Virus record (IMG/VR): IMGVR_UViG_3300022935_002598
Coordinates: 1 to 48,989 of that record
DNA: 48,989 nt
Direction: 5' to 3' (one strand)
Source: a virus
A model generated the notes under the pieces. That model searched no databases. It saw only the letters and a list, made by a program, of their open reading frames with translations, and had not been told where the DNA came from. This document shows, piece after piece, positions 1 through 13,130 of this stretch. The position numbers and the translations under genes were made by a program. Positions within the stretch are counted from its first letter, which is position 1; each line of letters begins with the position of its first letter.

Positions 1-1
1 G

Positions 2-37
2 GACGGCCGGGAGTACATCGTGCCGGTGCAACTGTGA
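2..37 (+). CDS. 3' end of an unidentified CDS (partial)
   Basis: Only the last 11 codons are inside the window. They read DGREYIVPVQL followed by TGA. The stop overlaps the ATG of the next small gene (TGATG), which suggests translational coupling. Too little is visible to assign a family. Confidence 0.5.
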   Translation, partial: DGREYIVPVQL

Positions 38-144
38 TGAGCAAGAAGAGATACGACACCATAGAACGATACGCGGTGGACTGCTGGATCTTCATAGGAT
101 TCATGGCCACGTGCTCGCTGGCGGCATACGTCAACACATTATAA
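37..144 (+). CDS. 35-residue single-pass membrane protein
   Basis: The ATG overlaps the stop of the preceding partial gene, and the frame stays open for 35 codons to a TAA. The N-terminus is charged (MSKKRYDTIERY). One hydrophobic stretch follows (residues about 16-31, WIFIGFMATCSLAAYV), so a single-pass inner-membrane protein is expected. The family is not recognised. The overlapping start and coherent membrane topology favour a real gene, but at this size homology would be needed to be sure. Confidence 0.45.
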   Translation: MSKKRYDTIERYAVDCWIFIGFMATCSLAAYVNTL

Positions 145-160
145 TAGCCTATTTGAAAGG

Positions 161-189
161 TTGACCTCCCGCGGGTTATAGTGTATTAT
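161..189 (+). promoter_or_regulatory. sigma70-type promoter of clpP, leaderless
   Basis: TTGACC (161-166), a 17-nt spacer and TATTAT (184-189). The clpP ATG lies 6 nt downstream (196), so transcription would begin at or next to the start codon. There is no Shine-Dalgarno sequence. Confidence 0.65.
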
Positions 190-195
190 AACAAT

Positions 196-795
196 ATGCC
201 ACTTACACCAATAGTGATAGAACAGACATCCAAGGGCGAGAGATCCTACGACATTTTCAGTAGGTTGCTCAGGGACAGGATAATCATGTTGGAAGGTCCG
301 ATAGGAGAGAACACATCCAGCGTTTTGTGTGCTCAACTGTTGTTCCTGGAATCACAGGATGCCTCGAAGGATATCACGTTGTATATCAATTCGCCAGGCG
401 GACTGGTAACGGCGGGCATGGCGATCTACGACACCATGCAGTATGTGAAGTCTGACATACAGACAATAGTGGTGGGCCAGGCGTGTTCGATGGGCTCACT
501 CCTAGCGTCAGCGGGTACACGGGGCAAACGCCTGATGTTGCCACACGCACGACACATGATACACCAGCCACTGGGCGGTGCCTCAGGACAGGCCACTGAC
601 GTGGAGATCAGGGCCAACGAACTGCTACGCTGGAAGCGGGAACTCACAGAGATATACCACAAGACAACTGGCCGAGACATAGAGACGCTGAAAGCGGACA
701 TGGAACGTGACAAGTTCATGACCCCGGAAGAGGCAGTGGCGTACGGACTGGCGGACAGGATCATCACGTCCAGAGCCGAAGACGACAAAGACTAA
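196..795 (+). CDS. clpP: ATP-dependent Clp protease proteolytic subunit
   Basis: A 199-residue serine protease of the ClpP family, close to the length of mature bacterial ClpP. The catalytic triad is complete: Ser98 in GQACSMGS, His123 in MIHQPLGG and Asp172 in ERDKF. The NSPGG oxyanion motif is at 65-69. ClpP forms a barrel that degrades proteins delivered by ClpX or ClpA. No Clp ATPase is visible here, so it would have to use host unfoldases. The open frame extends up to a GTG at 181, but that region contains the -10 box, so the start is placed at the ATG at 196, directly after a promoter. It is first in an apparent transcription unit with the sulfotransferase-like gene. Its role in infection (host protein turnover, regulator cleavage or head maturation) is inference. 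Confidence 0.95.
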
Positions 796-798
796 GAC

Positions 799-1311
799 GT
801 GTTCGTAATACATCCTACACGCAAGGGATTCATACACATTCCACGCACAGCCGGCAGATTCATAGAATCACAATGCAGATCCGTCGACGGATTCGAAAGC
901 ATAAGGCCACATCACACCCACATACCTGGAAATGTCAAAGGTTACGAATGGCACACGGTGCTGAGAGACCCAGTGGAGAGAGTCATTAGCATATACAGAC
1001 ACAGCCAAGGCGGAGCCCAGATGACCAAGCACAAGGGCAGTTTCGACGAATTCATTAATGGCGTGGCCACTGGGTTTGAGTGGCACACCAGACCACAGAC
1101 GGACTTCGTGACCGAGGGCGTTCGATGTTGGACCAGCGCATCAGAATGCGTCCAAGCACTGGGTGGCACGGTCACTGGCGTTCCTATAAATCAGAGTCAT
1201 TATCCCAGACCCACACTGACACAAGAGCAGATAGACAAGGTCAAAAGCGTTTACCGGTCAGACGTTGACCTGTGGAACAGTATCATAGACCAAGTTCAGT
1301 TTACCAACTAG
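799..1311 (+). CDS. sulfotransferase-like protein (Sulfotransfer_2 type)
   Basis: This 170-residue protein carries a PAPS-binding P-loop-like motif near the N-terminus (FIHIPRTAGRFIES, residues 11-24). A 3'-phosphate-binding motif follows (VLRDPVERVISIYRH, residues 54-68). This pattern is typical of heparan-type and bacterial Sulfotransfer_2 enzymes, which move sulfate from PAPS onto glycans. It is shorter than most family members, so the acceptor site may be reduced. The start is a GTG three bases after the clpP stop, with a poor ribosome-binding site, so translation is probably coupled. A second, unrelated sulfotransferase lies at 29801-30589. Confidence 0.7.
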   Translation: MFVIHPTRKGFIHIPRTAGRFIESQCRSVDGFESIRPHHTHIPGNVKGYEWHTVLRDPVERVISIYRHSQGGAQMTKHKGSFDEFINGVATGFEWHTRPQTDFVTEGVRCWTSASECVQALGGTVTGVPINQSHYPRPTLTQEQIDKVKSVYRSDVDLWNSIIDQVQFTN

Positions 1312-1312
1312 G

Positions 1313-1341
1313 TTGCGATTGCTAACTATTTGCAGTACAAT
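1313..1341 (+). promoter_or_regulatory. promoter of FTR1 gene, leaderless
   Basis: TTGCGA (1313-1318), a 17-nt spacer and TACAAT (1336-1341). Exactly 6 nt separate the -10 box from the ATG at 1348, the same geometry as clpP and tctA. Confidence 0.6.
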
Positions 1342-1347
1342 AACAAC

Positions 1348-1932
1348 ATGACAGGCATAACAGCATCAACGTTCATATGGTTCAGGGAAGGCCTAGAGGC
1401 CTATCTCATAGTGCAGATGGCGTGGCTGATGGCAAACACCAACAGGCAGAAACTCACCGTATTCGCCAGTACGGTCGTGGCGTTGATCGCCAGCGTGGTG
1501 TTGGGTTATTTTGCAATAGATTTCATACAGAACGATTTCGATTTGGTTGAAGCGTGGACGGCTTTGGCGGCCTCGGCCTTGCTCTTTTGGACAGCATGGT
1601 TCTGTCACGGTGCCACACAGCACATGAAAGACATCAGTAACAACATGTCGGGTAGCATGATGGCCCTGGCGACCATAGTGTTCCTCACGGTGTTCAGGGA
1701 AGGTGCGGAGGTCGTTGCTTTCCTTTCGGGACTCTGGGTGGCCGGAACCTCATTGATTGATATAGGTGTTGGCGCAGTTGCCGGCATAGGTGCGTTGGCC
1801 GTGGTGTGCTACTTGTTCAGCAACCAGATCAAGCGGATACCCATAGGCAAGATATTCCGTGCCAGCAGATGGATATTCACTGCGTTGGCGGTTTACTTCC
1901 TATACTATGGGATCCACGAACTGTTAGAATAG
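1348..1932 (+). CDS. FTR1-family iron permease
   Basis: A 194-residue polytopic membrane protein with two copies of the FTR1 REXXE iron-coordination motif: REGLE at 13-17 and REGAE at 117-121. Hydrophobic segments (about 15-30, 36-60, 68-88, 104-131, 138-157, 173-190) give about six or seven passes. FTR1/EfeU proteins move ferric iron across the membrane, usually with an oxidase or the EfeO/EfeB partners. Bacterial EfeU is normally about 270 residues, so this is a compact version. No EfeO, EfeB or ferroxidase gene lies nearby, so host partners would be needed. The open frame begins with a TTG at 1330 inside the promoter; ATG 1348 is preferred. An iron permease carried by a lytic phage is unusual. 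Confidence 0.88.
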   Translation: MTGITASTFIWFREGLEAYLIVQMAWLMANTNRQKLTVFASTVVALIASVVLGYFAIDFIQNDFDLVEAWTALAASALLFWTAWFCHGATQHMKDISNNMSGSMMALATIVFLTVFREGAEVVAFLSGLWVAGTSLIDIGVGAVAGIGALAVVCYLFSNQIKRIPIGKIFRASRWIFTALAVYFLYYGIHELLE

Positions 1933-1950
1933 CAGATGTGAATTTACAAG

Positions 1951-1979
1951 TTGACATCTGTGGGCCGAATAAGTAAACT
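1951..1979 (+). promoter_or_regulatory. promoter of the 2OG-oxygenase-like gene
   Basis: TTGACA (1951-1956), a 17-nt spacer and TAAACT (1974-1979). Unlike its neighbours, this gene has an mRNA leader of about 24 nt with an AAGGAAAT ribosome-binding site ahead of ATG 2010. Confidence 0.6.
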
Positions 1980-2009
1980 AGGTATTGGCACACTAATAAA
2001 GGAAATTAA

Positions 2010-2729
2010 ATGTACAAGACCAATCTAGACCTGCAACCTCTCAAAGATAACATCAAACCCTGGGGCGTCAGCCAGATGAACTCTTGGAGGCTGTACGAGA
2101 AGAACAAGAAGAAACCAGGATACGTGAAGCACGGCAACGTGTGGAAGTCATTCGAGAAGTTTGGCGTAACGCAAAAGAGGATGACCGACTGGGAGGTACC
2201 ACCGGTTATAAGCAACGGCGGAACATTTGGCCTGCAACCACAACTGCCCACGTCCAGACCGAGATTGAATTACATCTACGAACTCAACATCTACTGTGAC
2301 GAGACCAAGGACCTAACAAAGACCAACAGGACCATAGTTGACCAGACCGGTGACCGTGAACTGTCACGGGACGTACACAACGCACTCAGGGACTTCCTAG
2401 AACCCATGGGTTGGGAGAAACTGCGTTACTCAAGGTTTCAACAGGCCGCGGGCGAGCACACCGGTAGCCACGTCGACGTACACAGGCAGATGGCCGGAAT
2501 CCACGACAGCCTTGACGATCCGATCCTCAGTGGTGAGGTTCGCATAGGTGTCATATTCCTCACGGACTGGGCATACGGACAAGGGTTCGGAATGGGCGAG
2601 AGCATCGCACAGGATTGGAAGATGGGCGACTTCTACGAGTGGCCTTGGTTCTTCCCGCACCACACATTCAACAACTCGAACGTGCAGAGAGATTCACTCA
2701 CAGTAATAGGCCGAAAAAGAATCAAATAG
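2010..2729 (+). CDS. 2-oxoglutarate/Fe(II)-dependent oxygenase-like protein
   Basis: This 239-residue protein has the features of a double-stranded beta-helix dioxygenase in its C-terminal half. There is an HxD motif (H154-V155-D156, in GSHVDVH), a distal His (H217/H218 in FFPHHTFNN) and an Arg-x-Ser that would hold 2-oxoglutarate (R227, S229 in QRDSLTVIG). Such enzymes hydroxylate proteins, small molecules or nucleic acid bases using Fe(II), O2 and 2-oxoglutarate. Family members of this kind are common in marine T4-like phages, with mostly unknown substrates. The first 90 residues are basic and not recognised. The gene has its own promoter and a good SD. It is followed directly by the PP-loop gene, so the two may be co-transcribed. 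The family assignment rests on motifs only. Confidence 0.6.
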   Translation: MYKTNLDLQPLKDNIKPWGVSQMNSWRLYEKNKKKPGYVKHGNVWKSFEKFGVTQKRMTDWEVPPVISNGGTFGLQPQLPTSRPRLNYIYELNIYCDETKDLTKTNRTIVDQTGDRELSRDVHNALRDFLEPMGWEKLRYSRFQQAAGEHTGSHVDVHRQMAGIHDSLDDPILSGEVRIGVIFLTDWAYGQGFGMGESIAQDWKMGDFYEWPWFFPHHTFNNSNVQRDSLTVIGRKRIK

Positions 2730-2731
2730 CA

Positions 2732-3817
2732 ATGGACAAAGGCGCCATTACATCCGGGAATGCATTCGCGGAAGGCATCGTTGATCAGAGGACTGGCAAG
2801 CGATACGCGACCGCCATCAGTGCCATGCTGGAGTGCGAACACTTCGATGATCTCAAGGTATACACAGAATTCACGAAGCAAGGACCCGCACCCGCGGTTT
2901 CACTGGCACAACTGTATCAAGACAGGATCTCCAGTCTGCGTGAACAGTATGACTACGTAGAACTGAGTTGGGGAGGCGGACACGACAGCACTATGATACT
3001 GAAGGCGGCCGAGCAGGCCGACTGCCAGATAGATCTTATATCCATGCAGGTGCATGGCGATCCAGCAACACACAGGACAGGGTTCAACTCTGAGATATCA
3101 GAGAACATGCACCACGTGGAGTCATATGTCGAGAGATTCCCCCAGACCAAAGTGAGGTATCTTGACATAGACGAGTGCTACGATAAGACCATAGAGCAAC
3201 ACCACGACCACGCACTGTGGTGCAGTCTAACCACAATGGAGATGTTGGACGACATCTGTAGGATAGGCACAGATCACTTTGTTCCAGAGCGCATGGCCGG
3301 CAACGGAGTCATACTGTCAGGCCAGGGTTGGAAGAATGCGATCCACAACAGATTGACGGACACCTGGTCGCTGTTCCTGGGAGACACGGAGGTCAACCAA
3401 TTGGGAGCGATCAGTTTCCGGTTGCCAACAGTGAGGTTCTATGAAACACATGACATAATGATAAAGGTGGGTGAGGAGATTAGGAACTGGTACAACAACG
3501 CCACGGAACAAGAAAGGTTGCGTGTGAACATCACGGGCAATGATGACCTGTGGACCACCAACAACGAATGGGTACACGACGAGATCATGTACAAGGGACT
3601 GGACATCTTCCACGACAGCAAGAGCAAGGACTGGCTGTTGCCATGGCAGGAGCAACCTCGCTTCTCGTTCTGGACGAAGGAGAATGACAAGTACAAGGAG
3701 TATTACCAGTGGATAAAAATGCTCAACGAGAAGGTACACAACTCATGTCTTCTAGGCACAGGCGGCATACTAGGAGATGGACGCAAGAACATCACTGCCG
3801 CGGTGATTGACTTTTAG
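2732..3817 (+). CDS. PP-loop (asparagine synthase-like) ATP pyrophosphatase
   Basis: A 361-residue protein starting two bases after the stop of the upstream oxygenase-like gene. The frame is open further upstream, but ATG 2732 fits the operon spacing. Residues 77-87 (VELSWGGGHDS) form a PP-loop of the asparagine synthase/adenine-nucleotide alpha-hydrolase superfamily, which activates a carboxylate or amide by adenylation. The first Ser-Gly of the canonical SGGxDS is altered to WGGGHDS. There is no N-terminal glutaminase domain with a catalytic Cys, so any amidation would use free ammonia or another nucleophile. A second PP-loop protein of similar layout lies at 42700-44028. The true substrate is unknown. 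Confidence 0.6.
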   Translation: MDKGAITSGNAFAEGIVDQRTGKRYATAISAMLECEHFDDLKVYTEFTKQGPAPAVSLAQLYQDRISSLREQYDYVELSWGGGHDSTMILKAAEQADCQIDLISMQVHGDPATHRTGFNSEISENMHHVESYVERFPQTKVRYLDIDECYDKTIEQHHDHALWCSLTTMEMLDDICRIGTDHFVPERMAGNGVILSGQGWKNAIHNRLTDTWSLFLGDTEVNQLGAISFRLPTVRFYETHDIMIKVGEEIRNWYNNATEQERLRVNITGNDDLWTTNNEWVHDEIMYKGLDIFHDSKSKDWLLPWQEQPRFSFWTKENDKYKEYYQWIKMLNEKVHNSCLLGTGGILGDGRKNITAAVIDF

Positions 3818-3834
3818 GATGTATACATTATAAT
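3807..3834 (+). promoter_or_regulatory. promoter of tctA, leaderless
   Basis: TTGACT (3807-3812, inside the end of the preceding gene), a 16-nt spacer and a perfect TATAAT (3829-3834). Six nt then precede ATG 3841, and no ribosome-binding site is present. Confidence 0.65.
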
Positions 3835-3840
3835 AACGCT

Positions 3841-5250
3841 ATGGATCCGGTTTTCTTGAATCTAATAATAATGTTTGCGGGTATACTGCTTGGCCTAGTG
3901 GCAGGAGTACTGCCGGGCATTGGTAATGTCATAACACTGATATTGGTTTACCCATTCATAACGGACTTCGATCTATTCCAGATAGTGCTGTTCTATATGT
4001 GCCTGGCGGGAGCCGCACAGTACACGGGCAGTGTGGTGGCCACCACCCTCGCGGTGCCAGGCGAGACTTCCAGTCTACCTGCGGTCACTGAAGGACACAG
4101 GATGTTCCTTTCGGGCAGGGGCAACTACGCGATCAGCAACAGTGCCATAGGCAGTTTCTTTGGCGCCGGTATTGCTTCTGGCATAATGTTGTTGCTGTTG
4201 CCTGTGGGGGTGTACGCCATATCAAAATTCTACAACACACACATACAATCTGTGATACTGATAGGTGTCGCGATATTCCTGATAATGACCTACGCCGGAC
4301 AGAAGTGGTATCACAATCTCTTGCTGTTCGCCATAGGTTGGTTCCTGAGTTCCATAGGATTCTCCAAGGAACTGATGCAGTACAACTACGAATGGCTGAT
4401 AGACTACAAGAAGTTCTACTACCTACACTTCGGTCTGCCCCTGTATCCAGTGGTGGTGGCACTGTTCGTGTTCCCAATCTTCCTCAAGGAGTGGAACAGT
4501 CCTAGGCCCGACTCCAGCGCACTGGACAAGTTGTGGGACAACAAGTTCGTGCAACACCTGAGAGAGTTCTGGAACAACATAGGTTCCAGCATACGTGGGA
4601 CAGTGATAGGCAGTCTATGTGGACTGGTGCCACACATGACATCTACCCTGGCCAGTAACGTGGCCTACATCAGGGAGATGAACAGGCAGAAGAAGAAAGG
4701 CGCCTATGACGAGAACGGAGACATCAAGAGCCTTGTCAGTGCAGAGACGGCCAACAACGCGGCCGGACTGACACAACTCACACCCCTGCTGTTGATAGGG
4801 ATACCGATCACCACCAGCGAGGCGATCGTGCTGAACATAATCGAGAACAATATGCAGGTCATAAATTGGGAGACCACAGTGGCTTCAGGCATGTTTGGTC
4901 AGTTAGTGATTTACTTCATAGTGATGAATGCTCTGTGTCTACTAGCGGCATGGCCATTTGCCAAGCACCTACACGTGCTGTTCAAAATTAATCAGAAACT
5001 GCTGTACACTCTCACGTTCATACTGTTGATGTGTCTGGTGTTCTACATGGGCACCATTGTGCAACAGCAGATGTACTACATGATGGTTACCGCCGCACTG
5101 TTGCCTATCGGATACCTACTGCGAAGATGGGACACACTGATAGTGATCTTCGCATTTGTTCTGCAGGGACAGATACAGGGTGCAGTGATAAGGCTGTTAC
5201 ATATCTACTCTGACTGGTTACCACACATTCCAAATCTCGGTATCAGATAA
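3841..5250 (+). CDS. tctA: tripartite tricarboxylate transporter, large permease TctA
   Basis: A 469-residue protein with about 12 hydrophobic segments. It carries the two TctA signature repeats: GLVAGVLPGIG near residues 18-28, and a degenerate second copy, GSLCGLVPHM, in mid-protein. A PEAANNA-like block (SAETANNAAGLTQLTPLL, then LIGIPITTSEA) is typical of the family. TctA uses an ion gradient to import carboxylates such as citrate handed over by TctC. Family members are usually about 500 residues, so this one is slightly short but intact. The second PGxG is lost (CGLVPH), a notable divergence. The small subunit TctB, normally encoded beside TctA, is absent. Isoleucine is mostly encoded by ATA, in contrast to tctC downstream. 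Confidence 0.88.
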   Translation: MDPVFLNLIIMFAGILLGLVAGVLPGIGNVITLILVYPFITDFDLFQIVLFYMCLAGAAQYTGSVVATTLAVPGETSSLPAVTEGHRMFLSGRGNYAISNSAIGSFFGAGIASGIMLLLLPVGVYAISKFYNTHIQSVILIGVAIFLIMTYAGQKWYHNLLLFAIGWFLSSIGFSKELMQYNYEWLIDYKKFYYLHFGLPLYPVVVALFVFPIFLKEWNSPRPDSSALDKLWDNKFVQHLREFWNNIGSSIRGTVIGSLCGLVPHMTSTLASNVAYIREMNRQKKKGAYDENGDIKSLVSAETANNAAGLTQLTPLLLIGIPITTSEAIVLNIIENNMQVINWETTVASGMFGQLVIYFIVMNALCLLAAWPFAKHLHVLFKINQKLLYTLTFILLMCLVFYMGTIVQQQMYYMMVTAALLPIGYLLRRWDTLIVIFAFVLQGQIQGAVIRLLHIYSDWLPHIPNLGIR

Positions 5251-5317
5251 TATTACCAAAATAAATACCCACGTAACGCCGATAGCAACATCGACGTCGG
5301 GATAAAAACTGACGCCT

Positions 5318-5350
5318 GAGAGATCGCAATATGCCAATATCAGATCTCTC
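5318..5350 (+). terminator. stem-loop after tctA
   Basis: GAGAGATC (5318-5325) pairs with GATCTCTC (5343-5350), with ATAT/ATAT pairing possible inside the loop. It is followed by TTTACT, which is only weakly U-rich. It may end tctA transcription or act as an RNA-processing site. Confidence 0.4.
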
Positions 5351-5400
5351 TTTACTCATTAGAGAACGCCAGCCCGTGAGCATTCGCAAACATTTCCAAA

Positions 5401-5459
5401 ACAGACAGGACACGTACAGGAATAACTAACTCCTATTGCTTGACTCGTGTCCTGACTGT
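5401..5459 (+). repeat. long inverted repeat upstream of tctC
   Basis: ACAGACAGGACACG (5401-5414) pairs with CGTGTCCTGACTGT (5446-5459): a 14-bp stem with one mismatch and a 31-nt loop. The loop holds a small AGGA/TCCT stem. The right arm ends at the first T of the tctC -35 box (5459-5464), so it could be an upstream terminator or an operator. Confidence 0.6.
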
Positions 5460-5487
5460 TGACACGTTGTACTCAAAAATGTATAAT
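5459..5487 (+). promoter_or_regulatory. consensus sigma70 promoter of tctC
   Basis: TTGACA (5459-5464), a 17-nt spacer and TATAAT (5482-5487): a perfect consensus promoter. A leader of about 25 nt with AAAGGAAAA precedes ATG 5520. Confidence 0.8.
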
Positions 5488-5519
5488 GTTGAAAGTTAAC
5501 TTAAACAAAGGAAAAATAA

Positions 5520-6392
5520 ATGAAGAAGACAATCATCGCGTTTTTTGTTTCACTGATGTCCCTTACGTCTGTGAATGCAAAGACAATCGATTACCTAGTA
5601 ACAGGTACCCCGGGTGGAACTGCTTACGACAACGCTGAATTGTTCATTCCTATCTTGGAAAGAGAGACAGGATACAAGTTCAACAAGATCATCGTTGACA
5701 GCACAGTTGGAGCCACTATCTATCTAAAAACAAGCAAGAACCCAAGTGTTTGGATCCAAAACACACTGGAGCACGAAACTGTAGGAAATGAATTACAGGC
5801 CTCTCCGGAATCATGGATCGGAACAGGTTGGGGCAGAGCAATGGCATTCTGTTCTAACGACAGCATTGACATTGCGGTAAACAAATTGAAAGCCGGTAAG
5901 AGACTTACATTCGCAGTTTCAAACTCATACGGTCAGCACTTGATTGACCCGTTGGTTGAAGTGACTGGCACACCTATGAAGTTCGTTCCATACGGTTCAT
6001 CAGGTAAGAGTCTCAAAGGTTTCATTGCAGGTGATACAGATATGTTATTCACTAACATGCCAAAAGCAGTTAGCGGTGTGACAAAGAACGGTATCTCTTG
6101 TTGGGCGAACACCGGACCTACAAAGATCTTAGACATGGAGCCAATGGCAGACCTATTCCCAGACTACAAGTACAATGACATCCAAACGTTCACTTACTTG
6201 GATTCTGCTAACATGAGCGAAGCCGATGTAGCCAAACTTAGAGCGGCATGGGTGAACGTGTTAAAGGACGGTTCTGTTACAGGACACATCGAAAAGAAAA
6301 AACTATTCCATCCATCTGTGTACGGAGACTTAGACTCCACAGGTTGGTCCGCGATATTAGATAAAGCGGGAAAAAGTTGGGTAGGAAAATAA
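5520..6392 (+). CDS. tctC: periplasmic solute-binding protein TctC (Bug family)
   Basis: A 290-residue protein with a classic Sec signal peptide (MKKTIIAFFVSLMSLTSVNA, cleavage expected near Ala20). The mature N-terminus has the Bug/TctC ligand-loop motif TGTPGGTAYD. A second loop contains FVPYGSSGKSLKGFIAGDTDM, matching the family pattern in which the carboxylate is bound between two lobes. TctC captures tri- or dicarboxylates in the periplasm for TctA. The promoter is perfect consensus and the SD is good. Isoleucine is almost always ATC or ATT, with a single ATA, unlike surrounding genes. Together these suggest abundant synthesis, as for normal binding proteins. The exact ligand cannot be read from sequence. 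Confidence 0.88.
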   Translation: MKKTIIAFFVSLMSLTSVNAKTIDYLVTGTPGGTAYDNAELFIPILERETGYKFNKIIVDSTVGATIYLKTSKNPSVWIQNTLEHETVGNELQASPESWIGTGWGRAMAFCSNDSIDIAVNKLKAGKRLTFAVSNSYGQHLIDPLVEVTGTPMKFVPYGSSGKSLKGFIAGDTDMLFTNMPKAVSGVTKNGISCWANTGPTKILDMEPMADLFPDYKYNDIQTFTYLDSANMSEADVAKLRAAWVNVLKDGSVTGHIEKKKLFHPSVYGDLDSTGWSAILDKAGKSWVGK

Positions 6393-6402
6393 TACACCAG
6401 TG

Positions 6403-6426
6403 GTGCGTGGCCTCCGGGCCACACAC
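6403..6426 (+). promoter_or_regulatory. intercistronic GC-rich hairpin after tctC
   Basis: GTGCGTGGCC (6403-6412), loop TCCG and GGCCACACAC (6417-6426), with one C-A mismatch. No U-tract follows, so it is more likely a 3'-end stabiliser or attenuator between tctC and the dehydrogenase genes than a full terminator. Confidence 0.55.
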
Positions 6427-6445
6427 TTCAATACAAGGAGAATAG

Positions 6446-7225
6446 ATGACAGTTTTGATTTGCGGTGCTAATGGTTCGATAGGAAGTTTCGTGGCACAGG
6501 AAGAAGCAAAGACACACAAGGTGGTAGGTACATACAGGAAGTACGACGACCACGCAAAAGAATTAGAGAAGAATCCAAACATCACAATGGTGCAAAAAAA
6601 TATGTTTGAGGGCACCGACATGAAAGATGTTGTGGAGACAGCAAGACAACAAGGACCGATAACAAAGGTGTACTGGCTGGTCGGCGAAAGTTGGAACATA
6701 GGCTGGGACAAACTGAAACTTGAGGACATACAACACGCGGTGAAGATGTGTGCAGAGCCGTTGGCAAGTTTGATCATTGAGTGCAAACCTGAACTCTCTG
6801 ACGAGAACAATCTAATGAAATGGGCAAGTATATCTGGGATCAGTTCCTTGATCTACGCAGGTGGTCCGAACAAGCCAGCGACTGGTGGGGCCAAACACAT
6901 GGCGGAGTTCTACTTCAGGTCTGCGAGTGCTTTCTGGACCTGGAAGAAAAACTTATTCAATAATGTGATACTTGGAAACTCAAAGAGAACCAAGAACTTG
7001 TACGTGGGTTACCATGGCGAGGCACTGAAAAAGATATACAAAAATGATATACCATTGGGCACGGGAACGGAATCAGAAAACGTTGCCAACGTGTTGCTTT
7101 GGTTGAACAGCGATACCAACAAGTTCATGACAGGGCAGAACATTGTGTTCGATGGTGCAGAGACGATCAGGACCAGGGACAATGTCAAGGACACTCCCAT
7201 GAAGGACCATCCCAAGTACTACTAA
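6446..7225 (+). CDS. short-chain dehydrogenase/reductase-like protein (atypical active site)
   Basis: A 259-residue Rossmann-fold protein of the SDR superfamily. The N-terminal nucleotide-binding motif GANGSIGSF is at 7-15, and a conserved C-terminal segment (TGQNIVFDGAETIR) matches the typical SDR end. Ser128/Ser130 lie where the catalytic serine is expected. The usual YxxxK appears as TGGAK (T146-K150), so the catalytic tyrosine is missing and the activity may be altered or lost. An AAGGAG ribosome-binding site precedes the ATG. It lies between the tctC hairpin and a second SDR gene with only one base between the two coding regions, so the two SDRs are probably translated together. The substrate is unknown. 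Confidence 0.75.
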   Translation: MTVLICGANGSIGSFVAQEEAKTHKVVGTYRKYDDHAKELEKNPNITMVQKNMFEGTDMKDVVETARQQGPITKVYWLVGESWNIGWDKLKLEDIQHAVKMCAEPLASLIIECKPELSDENNLMKWASISGISSLIYAGGPNKPATGGAKHMAEFYFRSASAFWTWKKNLFNNVILGNSKRTKNLYVGYHGEALKKIYKNDIPLGTGTESENVANVLLWLNSDTNKFMTGQNIVFDGAETIRTRDNVKDTPMKDHPKYY

Positions 7226-7226
7226 G

Positions 7227-7844
7227 ATGAAGATCGCAATCACAGGAACCACTAGTGGCATAGGCAAGGCCACTACCGAATTACTGTCGTCAAAGGGTCA
7301 CGAGATATTTGAAATCAATAGGCCGGAATGGGATCACCATGACCTCGACAAGTTACAGGGCATAGACCTCAAGGGTTATGATGTGTTGATCTGCAATGCG
7401 GGTCACGACAAAGGACACCAAAAGTTCATAGACTCGCCTTTCGAACAATGGATGAATGTCATGAAGTGCAATCAACTGGCACCAATGTTGCTGACACAGA
7501 TATTCACCAGGCAGAACGAAAAAGGGACAATAATCTATATGACCACCCACCAGGATTCAAACTCCAGCAGTGCAGGTGCCTATCACACTGCCAAGTACGG
7601 ATTGAAGTTTATGATAGAAACTTTACGCAATGAAACCAAGCAGTTTCGATTTGTTGACTTCAGCCTAGGTAGGATAAAATCTTCCATGAGGAAGAACTGG
7701 GGTGTGCCGTTGACCGATGACCAAGCGAACTGGACGGGTCCACACGCCAACGCTCTGGAGTCGAGAGACATCGCTGTGCAGGTGGATCACGTGATCAATA
7801 ACGAACACGTCACCAACATCTTCGTCAAGCACATACAGAGATAG
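7227..7844 (+). CDS. short-chain dehydrogenase/reductase
   Basis: A 205-residue SDR with all core motifs: GTTSGIGKA (7-15) for NAD(P), CNAGHD (57-61 region) for the NAG motif, and the catalytic YHTAK (Tyr119, Lys123). It starts one base after the stop of the upstream SDR. At 205 residues it is a compact 'classical' SDR without an extra C-terminal domain. Pairs of SDRs next to transport or sugar genes often modify a hydroxy-acid or sugar, but no substrate can be assigned. It converges with the minus-strand small-gene operon ending at 7846. Confidence 0.85.
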   Translation: MKIAITGTTSGIGKATTELLSSKGHEIFEINRPEWDHHDLDKLQGIDLKGYDVLICNAGHDKGHQKFIDSPFEQWMNVMKCNQLAPMLLTQIFTRQNEKGTIIYMTTHQDSNSSSAGAYHTAKYGLKFMIETLRNETKQFRFVDFSLGRIKSSMRKNWGVPLTDDQANWTGPHANALESRDIAVQVDHVINNEHVTNIFVKHIQR

Positions 7845-7845
7845 A

Positions 7846-8007
7846 TTATTCCTCGTATCTTGTTTTTGGGACTGGACCTTTACTGAACCGTTTGTGTTTG
7901 ACGAAACGCTTGTTGCCCACCTTGTAGATTACAGGTGGCTTCTCCTCGTAGGATTTGATAGTGAACTCGTAGTATCTTTTCCATAACTTCTTAATCCATT
8001 TAAGCAT
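7846..8007 (-). CDS. 53-residue basic protein, unknown
   Basis: The ORF begins MLKWIKKLWKRYYEF and ends TRYEE. It is very rich in Lys, Arg and Tyr, and a strong SD (CGGAGGACG) precedes its ATG. It is the last of three small minus-strand genes (8288 to 7846). No family is recognised. The basic, aromatic composition would suit a nucleic-acid or membrane-surface-binding peptide, which is inference. Confidence 0.55.
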   Translation of the reverse strand: MLKWIKKLWKRYYEFTIKSYEEKPPVIYKVGNKRFVKHKRFSKGPVPKTRYEE

Positions 8008-8025
8008 ATGTCGTCCTCCGTCATA

Positions 8026-8178
8026 TTAGTTCAGTACAGTTACAGACACCGGCACCACAGGCACGGCGACTAACACGTTTCTTTCTTCAGGATAGGTGTA
8101 CGCTTCGGGCCATACCCATGTTGTTTGCTCGGGCGTGGACCCTACAAGCAACAACATGAATACGAATTTCGCCAACAT
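8026..8178 (-). CDS. 50-residue secreted or membrane-anchored small protein
   Basis: The N-terminus MLAKFVFMLLLVGS is signal-peptide- or anchor-like. The remainder is rich in Val and Pro (VAVPVVPVSVTVLN). Its ATG overlaps the stop of the upstream 36-residue gene (TAATG), which supports coupled translation. The family is not recognised. Confidence 0.5.
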   Translation of the reverse strand: MLAKFVFMLLLVGSTPEQTTWVWPEAYTYPEERNVLVAVPVVPVSVTVLN

Positions 8179-8288
8179 TATTTTTTCCAAAACATTGCCT
8201 TTGAACTTGCAGATTTAAGGTCATCCCATTTCTCATTGGCAAACCAACCCACTGCTATTCCGATGATTATTCCTAATGTAAAAAACAT
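8178..8288 (-). CDS. 36-residue small membrane protein
   Basis: MFFTLGIIIGIAVGWFANEKW gives one transmembrane segment, followed by a short charged tail. An AAGGAGAAC ribosome-binding site precedes the start. The stop overlaps the start of the next gene. Phage small membrane proteins of this form can act on the host envelope, but no function can be assigned. Confidence 0.5.
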   Translation of the reverse strand: MFFTLGIIIGIAVGWFANEKWDDLKSASSKAMFWKK

Positions 8289-8320
8289 ATTGTTCTCCTT
8301 ATAGTAACCATATTTATTTC

Positions 8321-8348
8321 TTTACATACAGCCAAAATATGTTATAAT
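8321..8348 (+). promoter_or_regulatory. promoter of small lipoprotein gene
   Basis: TTTACA (8321-8326), a 16-nt spacer and TATAAT (8343-8348), 8 nt before ATG 8357. It is another nearly leaderless arrangement, divergent from the 8288 operon. Confidence 0.55.
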
Positions 8349-8356
8349 TACTGCAT

Positions 8357-8554
8357 ATGAAAACTAGTATTATAATAGCACTTGCATTAATGCTCACAGG
8401 TTGCGCGATACCTTCGAACCCAAAGTTAAGTTTTGGTAAGAAGTGTCAAGTATCGGGCTCGGACATCACATATTCATATGTGTGGCTCTATGACAAAAAG
8501 GCAGGACTCAAGGCCTCTGAAGGTCAGTGTGTCCACCTACCCGAAGGCAAATAA
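8357..8554 (+). CDS. small lipoprotein, 65 residues
   Basis: The protein begins with a short type II signal peptide and a lipobox (LTGC, Cys16). After lipidation the mature part is about 50 residues with two more Cys that could form a disulfide. It would sit in the host inner or outer membrane facing the periplasm. Its stop overlaps the start of the next gene (TAATG). Small phage lipoproteins can block superinfection or assist lysis; either role here is inference. Confidence 0.65.
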   Translation: MKTSIIIALALMLTGCAIPSNPKLSFGKKCQVSGSDITYSYVWLYDKKAGLKASEGQCVHLPEGK

Positions 8555-8865
8555 TGTACAAGATACTGATACTGGCCTACTTGATAGGCCAGGACCCTAT
8601 AATCACCATGCAGACATTTGAGATGGAGAAAAAATTTGGCTCCATGGAGGAGTGTAAGAATGAACTGCTACTCAAAGATCCCGTGAGGGACACCTATGAT
8701 GTACTCTGGGAGTTTGTCAACGACATGGAATTCCAGTATGATTGGTTGTTAGCGGGTTGTAAGAATGACGAGACAGGTGAGGAGTTTCATATAGAACCCA
8801 CATATCCCAAAGGGAAACCAGCAGAGTTGGAAGGCTTACAATTAGACGGTCAACTTAAGGTTTAA
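8554..8865 (+). CDS. hypothetical protein, 103 residues
   Basis: Begins MYKILILAYLIGQDP, a weak hydrophobic segment that may be a signal. An acidic region with two Cys follows (EECKNELL and LLAGCKNDE). The start overlaps the lipoprotein stop, so the two genes are translationally coupled and probably act together at the envelope. The frame is open upstream to 8527, but ATG 8554 fits the overlap. It converges with the minus-strand lipoprotein gene, overlapping it by 4 nt. The family is unknown. Confidence 0.55.
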   Translation: MYKILILAYLIGQDPIITMQTFEMEKKFGSMEECKNELLLKDPVRDTYDVLWEFVNDMEFQYDWLLAGCKNDETGEEFHIEPTYPKGKPAELEGLQLDGQLKV

Positions 8866-9149
8866 GAGTTCTCATCAAACTTTTCAAAACTTTCATCAAC
8901 TTCTTTAAGATATTCATCTTGTGTCTGATGTGGGTTATCATCCGACTTTTTGTTCCTGTACTTTTCACAGTCCGGATTGTTTGGTGCGAACATACATCCG
9001 AGCATTAGGCCTAGATTCTTTACATTACCAACTGTGTCCAAAGTGGTGGGTTGTTTTGGTCCCTTTGTCTCCAACTGTTTGTTGGCACAGCCAGACAGAG
9101 TGATGGCGATCAGTATGGTCGCAAGTGTCTTGAGTGTTTTGGATGTCAT
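8862..9149 (-). CDS. small lipoprotein, 95 residues
   Basis: A signal peptide and lipobox (ITLSGC, Cys21) are followed by a charged, hydrophilic mature chain with a CMFAPNNPDC motif, which could make a disulfide loop. The acidic C-terminus ends FEKFDENS. A TTAAATAA box lies 6 nt upstream of the ATG, so it may be expressed late. The family is not recognised. An outer- or inner-membrane lipoprotein facing the periplasm is expected. Confidence 0.65.
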   Translation of the reverse strand: MTSKTLKTLATILIAITLSGCANKQLETKGPKQPTTLDTVGNVKNLGLMLGCMFAPNNPDCEKYRNKKSDDNPHQTQDEYLKEVDESFEKFDENS

Positions 9150-9155
9150 CGCGGT

Positions 9156-9162
9156 TATTTAA
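9156..9162 (-). promoter_or_regulatory. TTAAATA late-promoter-like box
   Basis: On the minus strand this reads TTAAATA, just upstream of the 9149 lipoprotein gene. It matches other T4-type late-like boxes in the window. Confidence 0.35.
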
Positions 9163-9181
9163 CCACGAACAGTATTAGCCT

Positions 9182-9361
9182 CTATTGGAAAGAATCTTTT
9201 ACAGCGATCTTTCCAGCGTTGGCGCCGTTCTTGATAACATACTGTTGTGTGCCGTTGGCACCAACTTCAACTTCTCTACGCAACAGTTTACCTAACACAG
9301 ATTCTTTGGCCTTCTTCTGCATTTGTTTTGCGTAAGCAATTATTGACTTTGTGTCTCTCAT
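9182..9361 (-). CDS. 59-residue small protein, unknown
   Basis: A 59-codon ORF starts MRDTKSIIAYAKQMQKK and ends KIAVKDSFQ, with a near-perfect ribosome-binding site (AGAGGAGAAC) ahead of its ATG. An N-terminal amphipathic basic helix and a C-terminal beta-like segment (GTQQYVIKNGANAGKIAV) are visible. The family is not recognised. It lies upstream of the 8862-9149 lipoprotein gene on the same strand. Confidence 0.6.
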   Translation of the reverse strand: MRDTKSIIAYAKQMQKKAKESVLGKLLRREVEVGANGTQQYVIKNGANAGKIAVKDSFQ

Positions 9362-9526
9362 ATGTTCTCCTCTAATACCTTGTTGGGTCTATTATTTATG
9401 TGTTACTTGCATATCAGTTATGCTTTTATAACATAGCATATTTTACTAGGTAAATCAACTCGATAGGCAACTACTCCAGAAGTATTTTTACCAGCAATAT
9501 ACAGGCGTCTGTGTGCGTTTAAAAGG

Positions 9527-9558
9527 TAGACTAGAACGGGTTTATAGTGTAATATAAT
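9527..9558 (+). promoter_or_regulatory. promoter of the tRNA cluster
   Basis: TAGACT (9527-9532) followed by overlapping -10 boxes TAATAT/TATAAT (9550-9558), about 10 nt before the first tRNA base. The segment CGGGTTTATAGTGTAATATAA closely resembles the clpP promoter. The rest of 9362-9526 shows no gene. Confidence 0.5.
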
Positions 9559-9567
9559 AACTGTGAT

Positions 9568-9643
9568 GCCGCTTTAGCTCAGTTGGTAGAGCAACTGATT
9601 TGTAATCAGTAGGTCCGCGGTTCGAATCCGTGAAGCGGCACCA
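9568..9643 (+). tRNA. tRNA-Thr (anticodon UGU)
   Basis: A complete cloverleaf: acceptor GCCGCTT paired with AAGCGGC, a D-arm with AGTTGG, anticodon stem ACTGA/TCAGT with loop TTTGTAA (anticodon TGT), T-loop TTCGAAT, and an encoded CCA end. It is the first of four clustered tRNAs. Confidence 0.95.
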
Positions 9644-9715
9644 TTTGAACCAATTATGCCAGAATTACCATATACACCAAAAAACTCATTGGTCTTGCAT
9701 GCGATTGGTTCGTTT

Positions 9716-9789
9716 GGGGGATTGGTGAAGTGGGATCACGCATCCATGGCATGGATGAGTCAGGAGTTCGACTCTCCTATCCTCCACCA
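9716..9789 (+). tRNA. tRNA-Ala (anticodon GGC)
   Basis: Acceptor GGGGGAT pairs with ATCCTCC (one G-U). D stem GTGA/TCAC, anticodon stem CATCC/GGATG with loop ATGGCAT (anticodon GGC), T stem AGGAG/CTCCT with loop TTCGACT, and encoded CCA. The short variable and D loops are slightly unusual. GGC would read GCC/GCU codons. Confidence 0.75.
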
Positions 9790-9794
9790 CACAG

Positions 9795-9871
9795 GTGCCC
9801 GTAGTTCAGTTGGATAGAATACGAGTTTCCTAAACTTGGGGTCGCAGGTTCGAATCCTGCCGGGCACGCCA
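9795..9871 (+). tRNA. tRNA-Arg (anticodon CCU)
   Basis: Acceptor GTGCCCG/CGGGCAC, anticodon stem CGAGT/ACTTG with loop TTCCTAA (anticodon CCT), T-arm GCAGG TTCGAAT CCTGC, and encoded CCA. It reads AGG, which is used frequently for Arg in the neighbouring phage genes. Confidence 0.93.
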
Positions 9872-9873
9872 AA

Positions 9874-9950
9874 GGACCGGTAGCTCAGTTGGATAGAGCG
9901 TGAGTTTGCGGAACTCAAGGCCATAGGTTCGAATCCTGTCCGGTCCACCA
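9874..9950 (+). tRNA. tRNA-Arg (anticodon GCG)
   Basis: Acceptor GGACCGG/CCGGTCC, anticodon stem TGAGT/ACTCA with loop TTGCGGA (anticodon GCG), T-loop TTCGAAT, and encoded CCA. Most bacteria read CGN with an ACG (inosine) tRNA, so a GCG anticodon is uncommon. Two bases separate it from the previous tRNA. Confidence 0.9.
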
Positions 9951-9970
9951 TTAGCACAATAATTAATTGT

Positions 9971-10273
9971 GTGAAAAGATTCTATTCCATACAACTCAGC
10001 GAACGCAACGAGAACGTGCCTGCCTATGTGGCAAAAATGTTGCTGAAAAAGGAATCACCCTTGATACAGTACCTGGATGAGAACAAGGCTTTGAGATTTA
10101 GACACCTCAAGAAGAAGAACATCCTGGAATGCTACGGCGACGAGAAACACCTCGTGGTTGGCAAACTAAAATACCCGGATCTGTTCGGACGCAAGGGCAG
10201 GATGGGTTTCATGGAACTGTACATAAGCATGAAGATCAAGCAACAGATGATGCTGTCGAAGGGGAGCGTATGA
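9971..10273 (+). CDS. hypothetical protein, 100 residues
   Basis: A GTG-started ORF, strongly basic (RFRHLKKKN, LKYPDLFGRKGRMGF, MKIKQQMMLSKG), lying just after the tRNA cluster. It overlaps the next gene (TATGA) by 4 nt, which supports translation. The family is not recognised. The start is uncertain because no strong SD is present. Confidence 0.5.
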   Translation: MKRFYSIQLSERNENVPAYVAKMLLKKESPLIQYLDENKALRFRHLKKKNILECYGDEKHLVVGKLKYPDLFGRKGRMGFMELYISMKIKQQMMLSKGSV

Positions 10274-10965
10274 GGTACGGATTTTTCTCTGACAGAGAGC
10301 CCAAGGCTTTTGACGACTGGCCGTTCAGGTGCCCGTCGTGGAACCCCATGCCAGATGGCAAGAAGAACGTGGTCATACTGGGTTGTTCGCACACCTGGGG
10401 AGTGGGATTGGAGCCAGAGGAGACATGGGCACACCACGTCAGCCAATGGAACACACAACGACTTAGGTACTGGAACCTCGGACAACCTGGATACAGTCCG
10501 GAGGGAGTGGTACGTATGCTGTACAGCACAGAGAAGACGCTGGACCCAAACATTATCATAATATGCTGGCCCGAGACCAGCAGGCGAGAATGGTATAGTG
10601 GTTCCAAGAACACACCACTGAACCTCCTGGGCACCGACGAGAAGTTGCGATACCAGACCAGTGATGATGACCTACAGGTGTTCTACCGTTCACTTTTCTT
10701 CGTGCAGAAATTCGCAGAGCACAAGCGGGCCAAGGTGTTCCACTGTTTCGCACAGACATACGTGGACATCAAGCAGGTGGATCCTCAACTGAACGTGCTG
10801 GAGGATTACACGCTGAGGAACTGCTGGCCCCACTGGGACAAGTTCACTGCCAGGGACCTCCACGCCTCACCATCATACGCCAGGGATGGCGCACACTACG
10901 GCATCGAACACCATGAGCGTTTCGCAAAGTTGTTCCTGGATAGGTTCGGTCCCAAATTGAAATAA
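10270..10965 (+). CDS. SGNH/GDSL-type hydrolase
   Basis: A 231-residue protein. The SGNH block I is seen as VVILGCSHTWGVG with catalytic Ser40. Block V appears as DGAHYG with the Asp-x-x-His pair (Asp206, His209). SGNH hydrolases remove acyl groups, often O-acetyl groups from carbohydrates or cell-wall and surface polymers. A start within the overlapping upstream gene (ATGA at 10270) is chosen for operon logic and to place block I correctly. No signal peptide is seen, so it is cytoplasmic or virion-associated. A related SGNH protein sits in the glycan island at 33506. The substrate is unknown. Confidence 0.75.
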   Translation: MRYGFFSDREPKAFDDWPFRCPSWNPMPDGKKNVVILGCSHTWGVGLEPEETWAHHVSQWNTQRLRYWNLGQPGYSPEGVVRMLYSTEKTLDPNIIIICWPETSRREWYSGSKNTPLNLLGTDEKLRYQTSDDDLQVFYRSLFFVQKFAEHKRAKVFHCFAQTYVDIKQVDPQLNVLEDYTLRNCWPHWDKFTARDLHASPSYARDGAHYGIEHHERFAKLFLDRFGPKLK

Positions 10966-10966
10966 T

Positions 10967-11998
10967 CTAATTGCGTTTGTAGAGCCTGGGAGCCTGCACC
11001 CTGGGTCTGGTGTGCTCGTGGTCCAGCAACGGCTTCACACGCTCCAGTTCCTGCTGGAACCTGTCATGCTCTGGATGGTCTGGATGGAATATGTCCTGCT
11101 CGCGCCAGTCCGACATCACGCCCCAGTCCTCGATCTTGTTCAGCCACAACCGGTCCACCTCGTACTGCTCCGCCAGGTATATGATATCACGCATCTCGTG
11201 GTAGTTGTGCCTCTGCACCACGAAGTGCATGACGAACTCGAACCCGTGCTCGCGCTTCTGTTGTCGCATGCACTCCAGGTTCTCTTGTATCTTGTTCCAA
11301 CGCCCGCCCAGCCTCAGCCGCTCGTAGGTCTCTCGGGTGGCGCCATCTATGCTCACGCCCAGTTGCGTCGTGCGTCCTATCACGTGCGGAACACGTGTGT
11401 GGAACTCCTGGAACATGAGCCCGTTGGTGAGGATGGTGTATTCTATGTTGTCGCGCACGGGCGTGTGCTCCATGAAGTGCCTGTACACATGGGAAGCGAA
11501 CGGGTCACCATCGGATCCTATGTGCACCTGTATCGGTGTGTCGCACATGGCCAGCCAGTCGTTGACCCTGTCCGCCAGCAAGATGCCCCTCCGGTACGCT
11601 GAACCCTCCTTGTGGAATATCATGCCCTTGCGGCAACTTGGACACCTCAGGTTGCAACTGTCATCTATGGCCAGCCTCACCTGGAACGGCCTGCCCTCGT
11701 CCCAGCCTATGCCGTGCCGCAGGTGTGTGCACCTGTGCTCGTTGCAGTACCTGAACGTGCCGTCCTCTATGGTGGCCTGCAGGTGCCGGTGTGTGTTGCC
11801 GCCCAGTATCTCCGATAGTGGTTTCAACTGAAGGTTGCCTATGCTCTGTGGCAACCAGGCCTGGCACTCACAGGCGTAGCACGATCCCTGCTTGTCTATC
11901 AGCACGGTGTCGAACGGCCTCGGACACCTGACCTGCATCTTGAGGTCCTTGCCTGTGTCTATGCCGTAATGGTCAAACAGTCGTTGGTTTATCTTCAT
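10967..11998 (-). CDS. radical SAM protein with N-terminal SPASM-like Cys cluster
   Basis: A 343-residue protein. The radical SAM cluster motif CNLRCPSC (Cys115, Cys119, Cys122) sits in mid-protein, not at the N-terminus. Ahead of it is a Cys-rich region (Cys25, Cys40, Cys43, Cys45, Cys85, Cys90) that resembles an auxiliary-cluster SPASM/twitch module normally found at the C-terminus. These enzymes use SAM and 4Fe-4S chemistry to modify peptides or sugars. The gene is visibly richer in G and C than its neighbours and than the other radical SAM genes in the window, suggesting a separate acquisition. It is transcribed opposite to the SGNH gene, 1 nt apart. The substrate is unknown. Confidence 0.78.
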   Translation of the reverse strand: MKINQRLFDHYGIDTGKDLKMQVRCPRPFDTVLIDKQGSCYACECQAWLPQSIGNLQLKPLSEILGGNTHRHLQATIEDGTFRYCNEHRCTHLRHGIGWDEGRPFQVRLAIDDSCNLRCPSCRKGMIFHKEGSAYRRGILLADRVNDWLAMCDTPIQVHIGSDGDPFASHVYRHFMEHTPVRDNIEYTILTNGLMFQEFHTRVPHVIGRTTQLGVSIDGATRETYERLRLGGRWNKIQENLECMRQQKREHGFEFVMHFVVQRHNYHEMRDIIYLAEQYEVDRLWLNKIEDWGVMSDWREQDIFHPDHPEHDRFQQELERVKPLLDHEHTRPRVQAPRLYKRN

Positions 11999-12096
11999 TT
12001 GTTAAAGTTGTTTTATGAACTGGTCTATATGTAATTATTTGTTTGTAACCGTGAGGAGAAAGTTTACCAAATGCAATTATTAAGTGTTGCTTTTTT

Positions 12097-12104
12097 GATA
12101 AATA
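12097..12104 (+). promoter_or_regulatory. late-promoter-like GATAAATA box upstream of porin
   Basis: GATAAATA differs from T4 TATAAATA at one position. It lies 88 nt before the porin ATG, with a hairpin in the leader. It is a candidate only. Confidence 0.3.
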
Positions 12105-12120
12105 TAACTTACAATCCAGA

Positions 12121-12143
12121 GCGGTCACTAGGCCAGTGATCGC
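12121..12143 (+). promoter_or_regulatory. hairpin in porin 5' leader
   Basis: GCGGTCACT (12121-12129), loop AGGCC and AGTGATCGC (12135-12143): a 9-bp stem with one G-U pair, 48 nt ahead of the porin ATG. It may stabilise or regulate the porin mRNA. Confidence 0.5.
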
Positions 12144-12191
12144 ATTTATAAACCTTATAGAAAAAGAAAAAGATATAGGAGACAATCTATA

Positions 12192-13130
12192 ATGAAAATG
12201 ACAAAGAAGAAGACGGCCATAGGTGCGGCCATAATAGTGGCACTTGTGGTAATCGGTTGGTTGATGAAACCAACACCGGCCGAAGCGGCTGATATGAAGG
12301 TTTATGGTTCACTGAACTATATGCTTTCTAACAACGAGGACGCCAACGGCGTCTCAACATCAAAGGCAGAGAACAATGGTTCCAGCATCGGTGTTGACTT
12401 CTCGAGCAACATCTCAGAGGGCGTTGACGGTTTCGCCAAGTTGGAAGTGGCGATCGATGCAGATGACTCTGGTTCCACACCATTTGATTCAAAACTGGCT
12501 TTCGCCGGCGTTGACATGGGTGGAGCAGGTGTGCTATCAGCCGGAAGACAGAATTCTGTGTTCAAGGGTGCTGTGACATCTAAGACGGATGTGTTCCCGG
12601 AATACGGTAATACTGCCGCACAGAAACTGTTCAGCAGAGACTCACACACAGTGATCTACTCGAACACGCTTGGTGCGATCCAGATCGACAACTTGGTAAA
12701 AGTTGACGGTACAACTGGTAAGTCAGGCGTTGACGTGTACGAGACTGCGGCGTCTATGGACATCAGCGATAGCCTAAACGTGGGTATCGCCTACACGGAT
12801 GACAAAGTGAACAACATCGAGTACAAGGGTGTTGGTGCTTCTTTTGACATCACAGATGCCACAACGATCGGTTACAACCACACAATCAAGACTGTGGAAT
12901 CAACCGATCTTGACACCAAAGCCAACGAATTCGTTGCTTCGCACGTGATCGAAGACACAACGTACTCAGTGGGTTACGGCAAGATCAAGGATGGAAACAC
13001 ATACACAACAGTGGGAGCCGAGAAGAAGATCGGTGAAAACTTCAGCGTGTATGGTGCCTTTGAAATGACAGACGTCACATCAGGTGTTGACACACAAGAT
13101 GCCGCGGCTGGAATCAAATTCACATTCTAA
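12192..13130 (+). CDS. outer-membrane porin (Gram-negative porin family)
   Basis: A 312-residue protein with a long signal peptide (hydrophobic core 9-25, cleavage expected at AEA/AD near residue 32-33). The rest shows alternating beta-strand patterning (MKVYGSLNY, LNVGIAYTD, TIGYNHTIK, YSVGYGKIK). It ends in the aromatic signature GIKFTF, with the C-terminal Phe needed for BAM-dependent outer-membrane insertion. This is the architecture of 16-strand general porins. The N-terminal strand with YGSLN matches the common porin start. An AGGAGAC ribosome-binding site precedes the ATG. Isoleucine in the mature part is almost entirely ATC, unlike neighbouring genes. Phage-encoded porins are known (phage PA-2 Lc, NmpC) but rare in T4-like phages. 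Confidence 0.88.
   Translation: MKMTKKKTAIGAAIIVALVVIGWLMKPTPAEAADMKVYGSLNYMLSNNEDANGVSTSKAENNGSSIGVDFSSNISEGVDGFAKLEVAIDADDSGSTPFDSKLAFAGVDMGGAGVLSAGRQNSVFKGAVTSKTDVFPEYGNTAAQKLFSRDSHTVIYSNTLGAIQIDNLVKVDGTTGKSGVDVYETAASMDISDSLNVGIAYTDDKVNNIEYKGVGASFDITDATTIGYNHTIKTVESTDLDTKANEFVASHVIEDTTYSVGYGKIKDGNTYTTVGAEKKIGENFSVYGAFEMTDVTSGVDTQDAAAGIKFTF

Follow-up and report, generated by a model that had tools for sequence, protein, structure and literature searches.

The binding proteins of the TctC family have mostly carboxylates as ligands, and TctB has been suggested to be an accessory protein that is not observed in archaea; in TRAP transporters the small subunit corresponding to TctB is essential (PMC5812351). 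Among marine phages, a SUP05 phage contig has been reported to carry a candidate auxiliary gene recognised by a tctA domain match (eLife 2014, PMC4164917), and a viral OmpL occurs together with amtB-glnK (PMC8115048). In a limited literature search we found no report of FTR1 or an iron permease as a phage auxiliary gene. Auxiliary genes of phages have mostly been described singly, whereas here one clade of T4-like phages exchanges complete or near-complete importers (TctA-TctC, TctCBA, a Liv ABC importer and FTR1) around fixed anchor genes.

Four transport genes in a T4-like phage fragment

The DNA analysed here, called the window throughout, is a viral fragment of 48,989 bases from a T4-like phage (gp17, gp41, UvsX, UvsW and others). 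FTR1, TctA, TctC and porin genes all lie on its plus strand in uninterrupted reading frames, within the following set of features.

1313..1334, plus strand: palindromic promoter element TTGCGATT-N7-ATTTGCA, 22 bases, overlapping the sigma70-like FTR1 promoter at 1313-1341
1348..1932, plus strand: FTR1-family permease, 194 aa, six predicted helices, two REXXE motifs (Pfam FTR1)
2010..2729, plus strand: protein linked to Tct, a possible 2OG-Fe(II) oxygenase with invariant HxD, H and R
2732..3817, plus strand: Tct-linked PP-loop-like protein with an invariant WGGGxDS motif
3807..3834, plus strand: TctA promoter TTGACT-N16-TATAAT, 11/12 consensus, 6 nt before the ATG (leaderless)
3841..5250, plus strand: TctA permease, 469 aa (PF01970, 216 bits)
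5271..5391, plus strand: structured RNA of ~120 nt with an upstream TAAATA resembling a T4 late promoter (fold, covariation)
5397..5460, plus strand: hairpin of a long inverted repeat, after the RNA and before the TctC promoter (fold of 5265-5460)
5459..5487, plus strand: TctC promoter TTGACA-N17-TATAAT, a perfect sigma70 consensus (12/12)
5520..6392, plus strand: TctC-like periplasmic binding protein, 290 aa, signal peptide (profile methods)
12192..13130, plus strand: outer-membrane porin, 312 aa, signal peptide, C-terminal F (Pfam Porin_1)

Independent contigs agree with the window at 99.99%, L005 and L020 jointly covering 1-23,127 and L019 covering 2,936-23,127, and there is therefore no assembly junction in the four-gene region; chimeric assembly is ruled out for the first 23 kb. 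The earlier note had described each of the four genes as intact and named disrupted frames or non-phage assembly junctions at 1-13 kb as what would speak against it. Neither is present, and its four gene identities were correct by Pfam or, for TctC, by profile methods. With dN/dS at about 0.06-0.20 where synonymous sites were unsaturated, all four genes are under strong purifying selection.

In two pattern scans of bacterial and archaeal genomes, neither TctA nor FTR1 had a cellular relative. GC content is about 49-58% at 1-5000 and 10000-12000 and about 42-45% in the phage core, with GC3 at about 0.65 for the genes of the first 5 kb, which suggests recent passage of these two stretches through a higher-GC background; the TctA and FTR1 homologues of some other phages are low in GC. 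Four tRNA genes (Thr-TGT, Ala-GGC, Arg-CCT and Arg-GCG) are clustered at 9568-9950.

The TctA protein aligns with the entire PF01970 profile and with cellular TctA over 433 columns (hhalign, 99.9%). Its TM1 signature, G-x3-G-x3-G-x2-PGxG, is exact, and the second copy of the signature ends in PHxT instead of PGxG. The TctC protein has no Pfam TctC match even at E<=10. When a profile of four phage homologues was compared with the PDB, the five best matches were TctC/Bug structures (2dvz at E 3.6e-4, TBP and 7ndr among them), and against cellular TctC it aligned over 235 columns (hhalign 92%, E 6e-7; unrelated control, 0.7%). By profile methods, then, the protein is a member of the TctC/Bug family that is too divergent for Pfam. 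An AlphaFold model of TctC was set aside for its pLDDT of 37 and shallow alignment. The family signature is P-F-x-A-G-G-x-x-D (PMC5812351); in the phage protein the loop keeps the GG, has the Asp shifted by one residue and lacks the Pro-Phe. As this binding loop departs from the family pattern, and so does the second TctA signature, the substrate could be an unusual one.

The FTR1 start was taken at 1348, a TTG at 1330 being the less likely start. The protein passes the Pfam family threshold (PF03239, 41.3 bits, cut-off 25.3), with an alignment that ends at profile position 211 of 284, and scores 56.6 bits against NCBIfam EfeU, under the equivalog cut-off of 255. Both REXXE motifs are intact, as had been claimed (REGLE at residue 13 and REGAE at residue 117 of the 194 aa form), and both are retained in nine homologues. 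Permeases of the FTR1/EfeU type are expected to have seven transmembrane helices, and the phage protein has six in an AlphaFold model of moderate confidence (pLDDT 68). Foldseek gave no significant match to this model, and no partner protein for FTR1 was recognised within the window.

The porin scores 38 bits against Porin_1 (cut-off 23.7), and it combines this homology with the signal peptide and C-terminal aromatic residue by which Gram-negative porins are recognised. Related loci number 44. In this T4-like clade, dozens of contigs have the porin next to gp41, of which it is a near-constant neighbour, and it is a near-core gene of the clade.

A TATAAT-like box lies about 6 nt before the ATG of several genes, among them ClpP, FTR1, TctA and gp41, which are apparently leaderless:

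Window 196, 1348, 3841, 8357, 16899-18338 (minus strand) and 33506: apparent leaderless genes with a TATAAT-like box before the ATG

Such a box stands before 9/32 genes and before about 2% of all ATGs, with a slightly wider range of spacings accepted for genes than for the background. The arrangement is kept in homologues of ClpP, FTR1 and TctA; for TctA it takes the form TATAAT-N5/6-start in four homologues. The hexamers of the TctC promoter are likewise conserved among the type-1 homologues.

Distribution of the modules among related phages

Relatives were gathered with each gene as bait and with the flanking ClpP as a neutral bait; TctA, FTR1 and porin were sought in 48 whole records, and TctC in 30 of these. 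TctA was present in 8/48 records and FTR1 in 26/48, and 22 of these 26 were without TctA. FTR1 accompanied TctA in 4/8 TctA-bearing records and was found in 22/40 TctA-less ones (Fisher p=1), and the co-occurrence of TctA and porin gave the same value (p=1, 48 records). FTR1 and porin showed an apparently negative association under this bait-based sampling. Only the window's own genotype, among the 48 records, had Tct, FTR1 and porin together. Baits and fragmentary records bias such counts, and nothing in them suggests that the four genes cooperate. The earlier note's proposal of a four-gene joint import set, for which it had asked whether the genes co-occur in related phages, therefore fails: the genes occur independently, Tct being unassociated with FTR1 or with porin.

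The two Tct genes, in contrast to the set of four, are linked. All six type-1 records carry TctA and TctC jointly, TctA first, with constant order and spacing and with the RNA-bearing gap between them. The protein encoded at 2732-3817 is found in 6/6 type-1 Tct contigs, and that encoded at 2010-2729 in the 5/5 that cover the stretch, the contig of G001 ending before it. The latter has no Pfam or PDB match and is possibly a 2OG-Fe(II) oxygenase, to judge by its motif; the motif of the former suggests a PP-loop enzyme, with no significant family match and no profile support for that assignment. At E<=10, a search that did recover TctB from G043 detected none in the window or in five type-1 relatives, all of these records being fragments, and none was found in the type-1, G005 or G010 cassettes. 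Only one other window ORF of at least 80 aa has at least three predicted helices, and it lies at 24 kb, antisense to UvsW. The earlier note did not mention the absence of TctB.

Three further TctA lineages, each beside a putative signal-peptide binding-protein gene, were found in G005 (as a second copy), G010 and G043, and a different importer was found in G006.

L181:4482-11058 (G005, contig 3300020404_002009): two different TctA genes side by side, each followed by a putative binding-protein gene
L179:5340-8272 (G043, contig 3300009068_004104): full TctC-TctB-TctA operon with a clear TctC; the contig also has FTR1
L206:5210-9813 (G006, contig 3300017951_000010): complete LivKHMGF-type ABC importer, of the branched-chain amino-acid type

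The second TctA of G005 is 33% identical and adjoins the type-1 cassette; its neighbour is a putative TctC by position, size and motif only. In G010, whose examined stretches have no core gene in common with the window, TctA overlaps a gene for a protein with a TctC-like N-terminal part. G043 has the core genes of the clade, and its TctC-TctB-TctA order is the usual bacterial one. G006 is a sister genome (gp41 98% identical to that of the window, UvsW 96%) with a five-gene Liv importer (binding protein, two permeases, two ATPases) just beyond gp41; no such importer was found in the window. Importers thus vary from one relative to the next, with the permease and its binding protein as the unit, and the swapping between phages is recurrent.

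The FTR1 gene is mobile, and its locus varies. The palindromic element TTGCGATT-N7-ATTTGCA has a single match in the window, even allowing two mismatches, and precedes FTR1 in many relatives; in relatives that lack FTR1 it instead precedes membrane peptides of 48-62 aa with one helix.

Window 1313-1341, L004:4280, L021:445, L024:4052, L030:577 and L042:5291: palindromic promoter with exchanged FTR1 or 48-62 aa peptides

An iron operator was considered for this palindrome and dismissed, as unrelated small peptides sit under an identical element in the relatives. Because it drives these peptides as well, the element is a phage promoter with swapped cargo and does not speak for iron control.

A structured RNA between TctA and TctC

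The sequence that separates TctA from TctC is conserved, and it folds far better than shuffled sequences (z -4.6). Stems of the RNA covary in four type-1 sequences, and a model of the RNA found three more phage contigs with no Tct gene nearby. In G006 it stands before the Liv importer, in G048 before desaturase-like genes and in G010 before a cluster with distant similarity to the protein encoded at 2010-2729. These seven divergent contigs represent three phage lineages.

Window 5271-5391 (plus strand), L004:8089-8215, L006:3549-3669, L181:9942-10060, L205:5350-5463 (minus strand), L206:5033-5138 and L207:4780-4883: copies of the structured RNA

Across the seven sequences, 97% of cells are paired against 29-49% in slid controls. 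Double changes occur in 9/28 pairs, including one pseudoknot pair seen as GC, AU and CG, in an alignment that was fitted to the nested-stem model and not to the pseudoknot. By eye, every copy has a TAAATA-like sequence resembling a T4 late promoter upstream and a sigma70-like promoter downstream, followed by an accessory operon. Among 4227 Rfam models there was no plausible match for the RNA at E<=10, and elsewhere in the window only the tRNAs matched; at blastn level no copy was found in cultured phages.

A role as a dedicated Tct regulator was dismissed, as the RNA also heads other operons. It is tentatively a new pseudoknotted family of phage RNAs that heads accessory operons (TctC; LivKHMGF) in several marine lineages, a reading to which we give slightly less than even weight. 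It could act as a late small RNA made from the T4-type late promoter or as a ligand-sensing leader, and these phages would then have their own means of regulating the imported-nutrient genes. This unclassified RNA provides a concrete candidate regulatory element beside some of the importer cassettes and may perhaps be more novel than the importer finding itself.

Interpretation and comparison with known systems

We consider it probable that the import genes of the window are separate and exchangeable modules of a marine T4-like phage and not one four-gene transporter: TctA and TctC as a secondary importer dependent on a binding protein, a separate FTR1, and a near-core porin. As TctA and TctC travel together and relatives carry other importers, the unit is a swappable importer cassette. 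TctC would be exported to the periplasm of the infected Gram-negative cell and there pass its ligand, a carboxylate or comparable small anion, to TctA; no phage TctB would take part, TctB being dispensable or supplied by the host. FTR1 would be a separate, short iron-permease-like protein from a variable locus, and the porin the product of a near-core gene of the clade. Expression during infection, transport activity and the substrates are inferred, import of carboxylates during infection being likely. The exchange of complete or near-complete importers suggests that the phages provide for uptake as a whole, with its binding protein, instead of tuning host enzymes.

The earlier idea of phage-borne nutrient import thus holds, while the co-occurrence counts remove its four-part system and with it the ferric-carboxylate proposal. 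In one cooperative system of that kind the porin would admit the complexes, TctC bind them, and TctA and FTR1 import them. That four genes spanning outer membrane, periplasm and inner membrane lie within 12 kb is what speaks for such a system. It is nevertheless highly improbable, because Tct, FTR1 and porin come together in one genotype only and without association, TctA, TctC and FTR1 stand under separate promoter-like sequences, and each module is distributed in its own way; a ferric-carboxylate link has no support. A different possibility is that the porin, and perhaps FTR1, remodels the surface of the infected cell, for superinfection exclusion or receptor replacement, and does not serve feeding. 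The near-fixed place of the porin beside gp41, whichever importers are present, is consistent with this, and the tiny one-helix membrane peptides driven by the FTR1 promoter in relatives would suit host-takeover genes; FTR1 nevertheless retains both REXXE motifs and the porin shows ordinary porin homology, and we regard surface remodelling as rather unlikely.

The absence of TctB could also mean that TctA pairs with TctB and TctC of the host, with the phage TctC as a further binding protein to widen or redirect the choice of substrates. Bacteria commonly have orphan TctC proteins (PMC5812351), and the phage TctC has a strong promoter of its own. TctA and TctC are nonetheless always adjacent, and an adjoining binding-protein gene recurs in other TctA lineages, so that we consider pairing with host partners doubtful, and favour the phage TctA-TctC cassette as the importer.

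Compared with described systems, the porin resembles the phage-borne porin of the cultured Pelagibacter phage HTVC008M, to which it is 39% identical, and differs from the viral OmpL found with amtB-glnK in being tied to gp41 and not to an importer. FTR1 shares two REXXE motifs and Pfam-level homology with the EfeU/FTR1 iron permeases (PF03239), but it has only 194 aa and six helices and falls below the EfeU equivalog cut-off. The Tct cassette has the TctA and TctC homology, the TM1 signature and the periplasmic binding protein of the tripartite tricarboxylate transporter TctCBA (TC 2.A.80); unlike it, the cassette has the order A-C, an altered TctC loop, and separate promoters with an RNA between the genes, and it is without TctB although the TTT family is defined as tripartite. 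The SUP05 phage contig likewise places a TctA-like gene in a marine phage, but as a domain match only, whereas here TctA is full-length and has an adjacent, in part putative, TctC in four lineages, once together with TctB.
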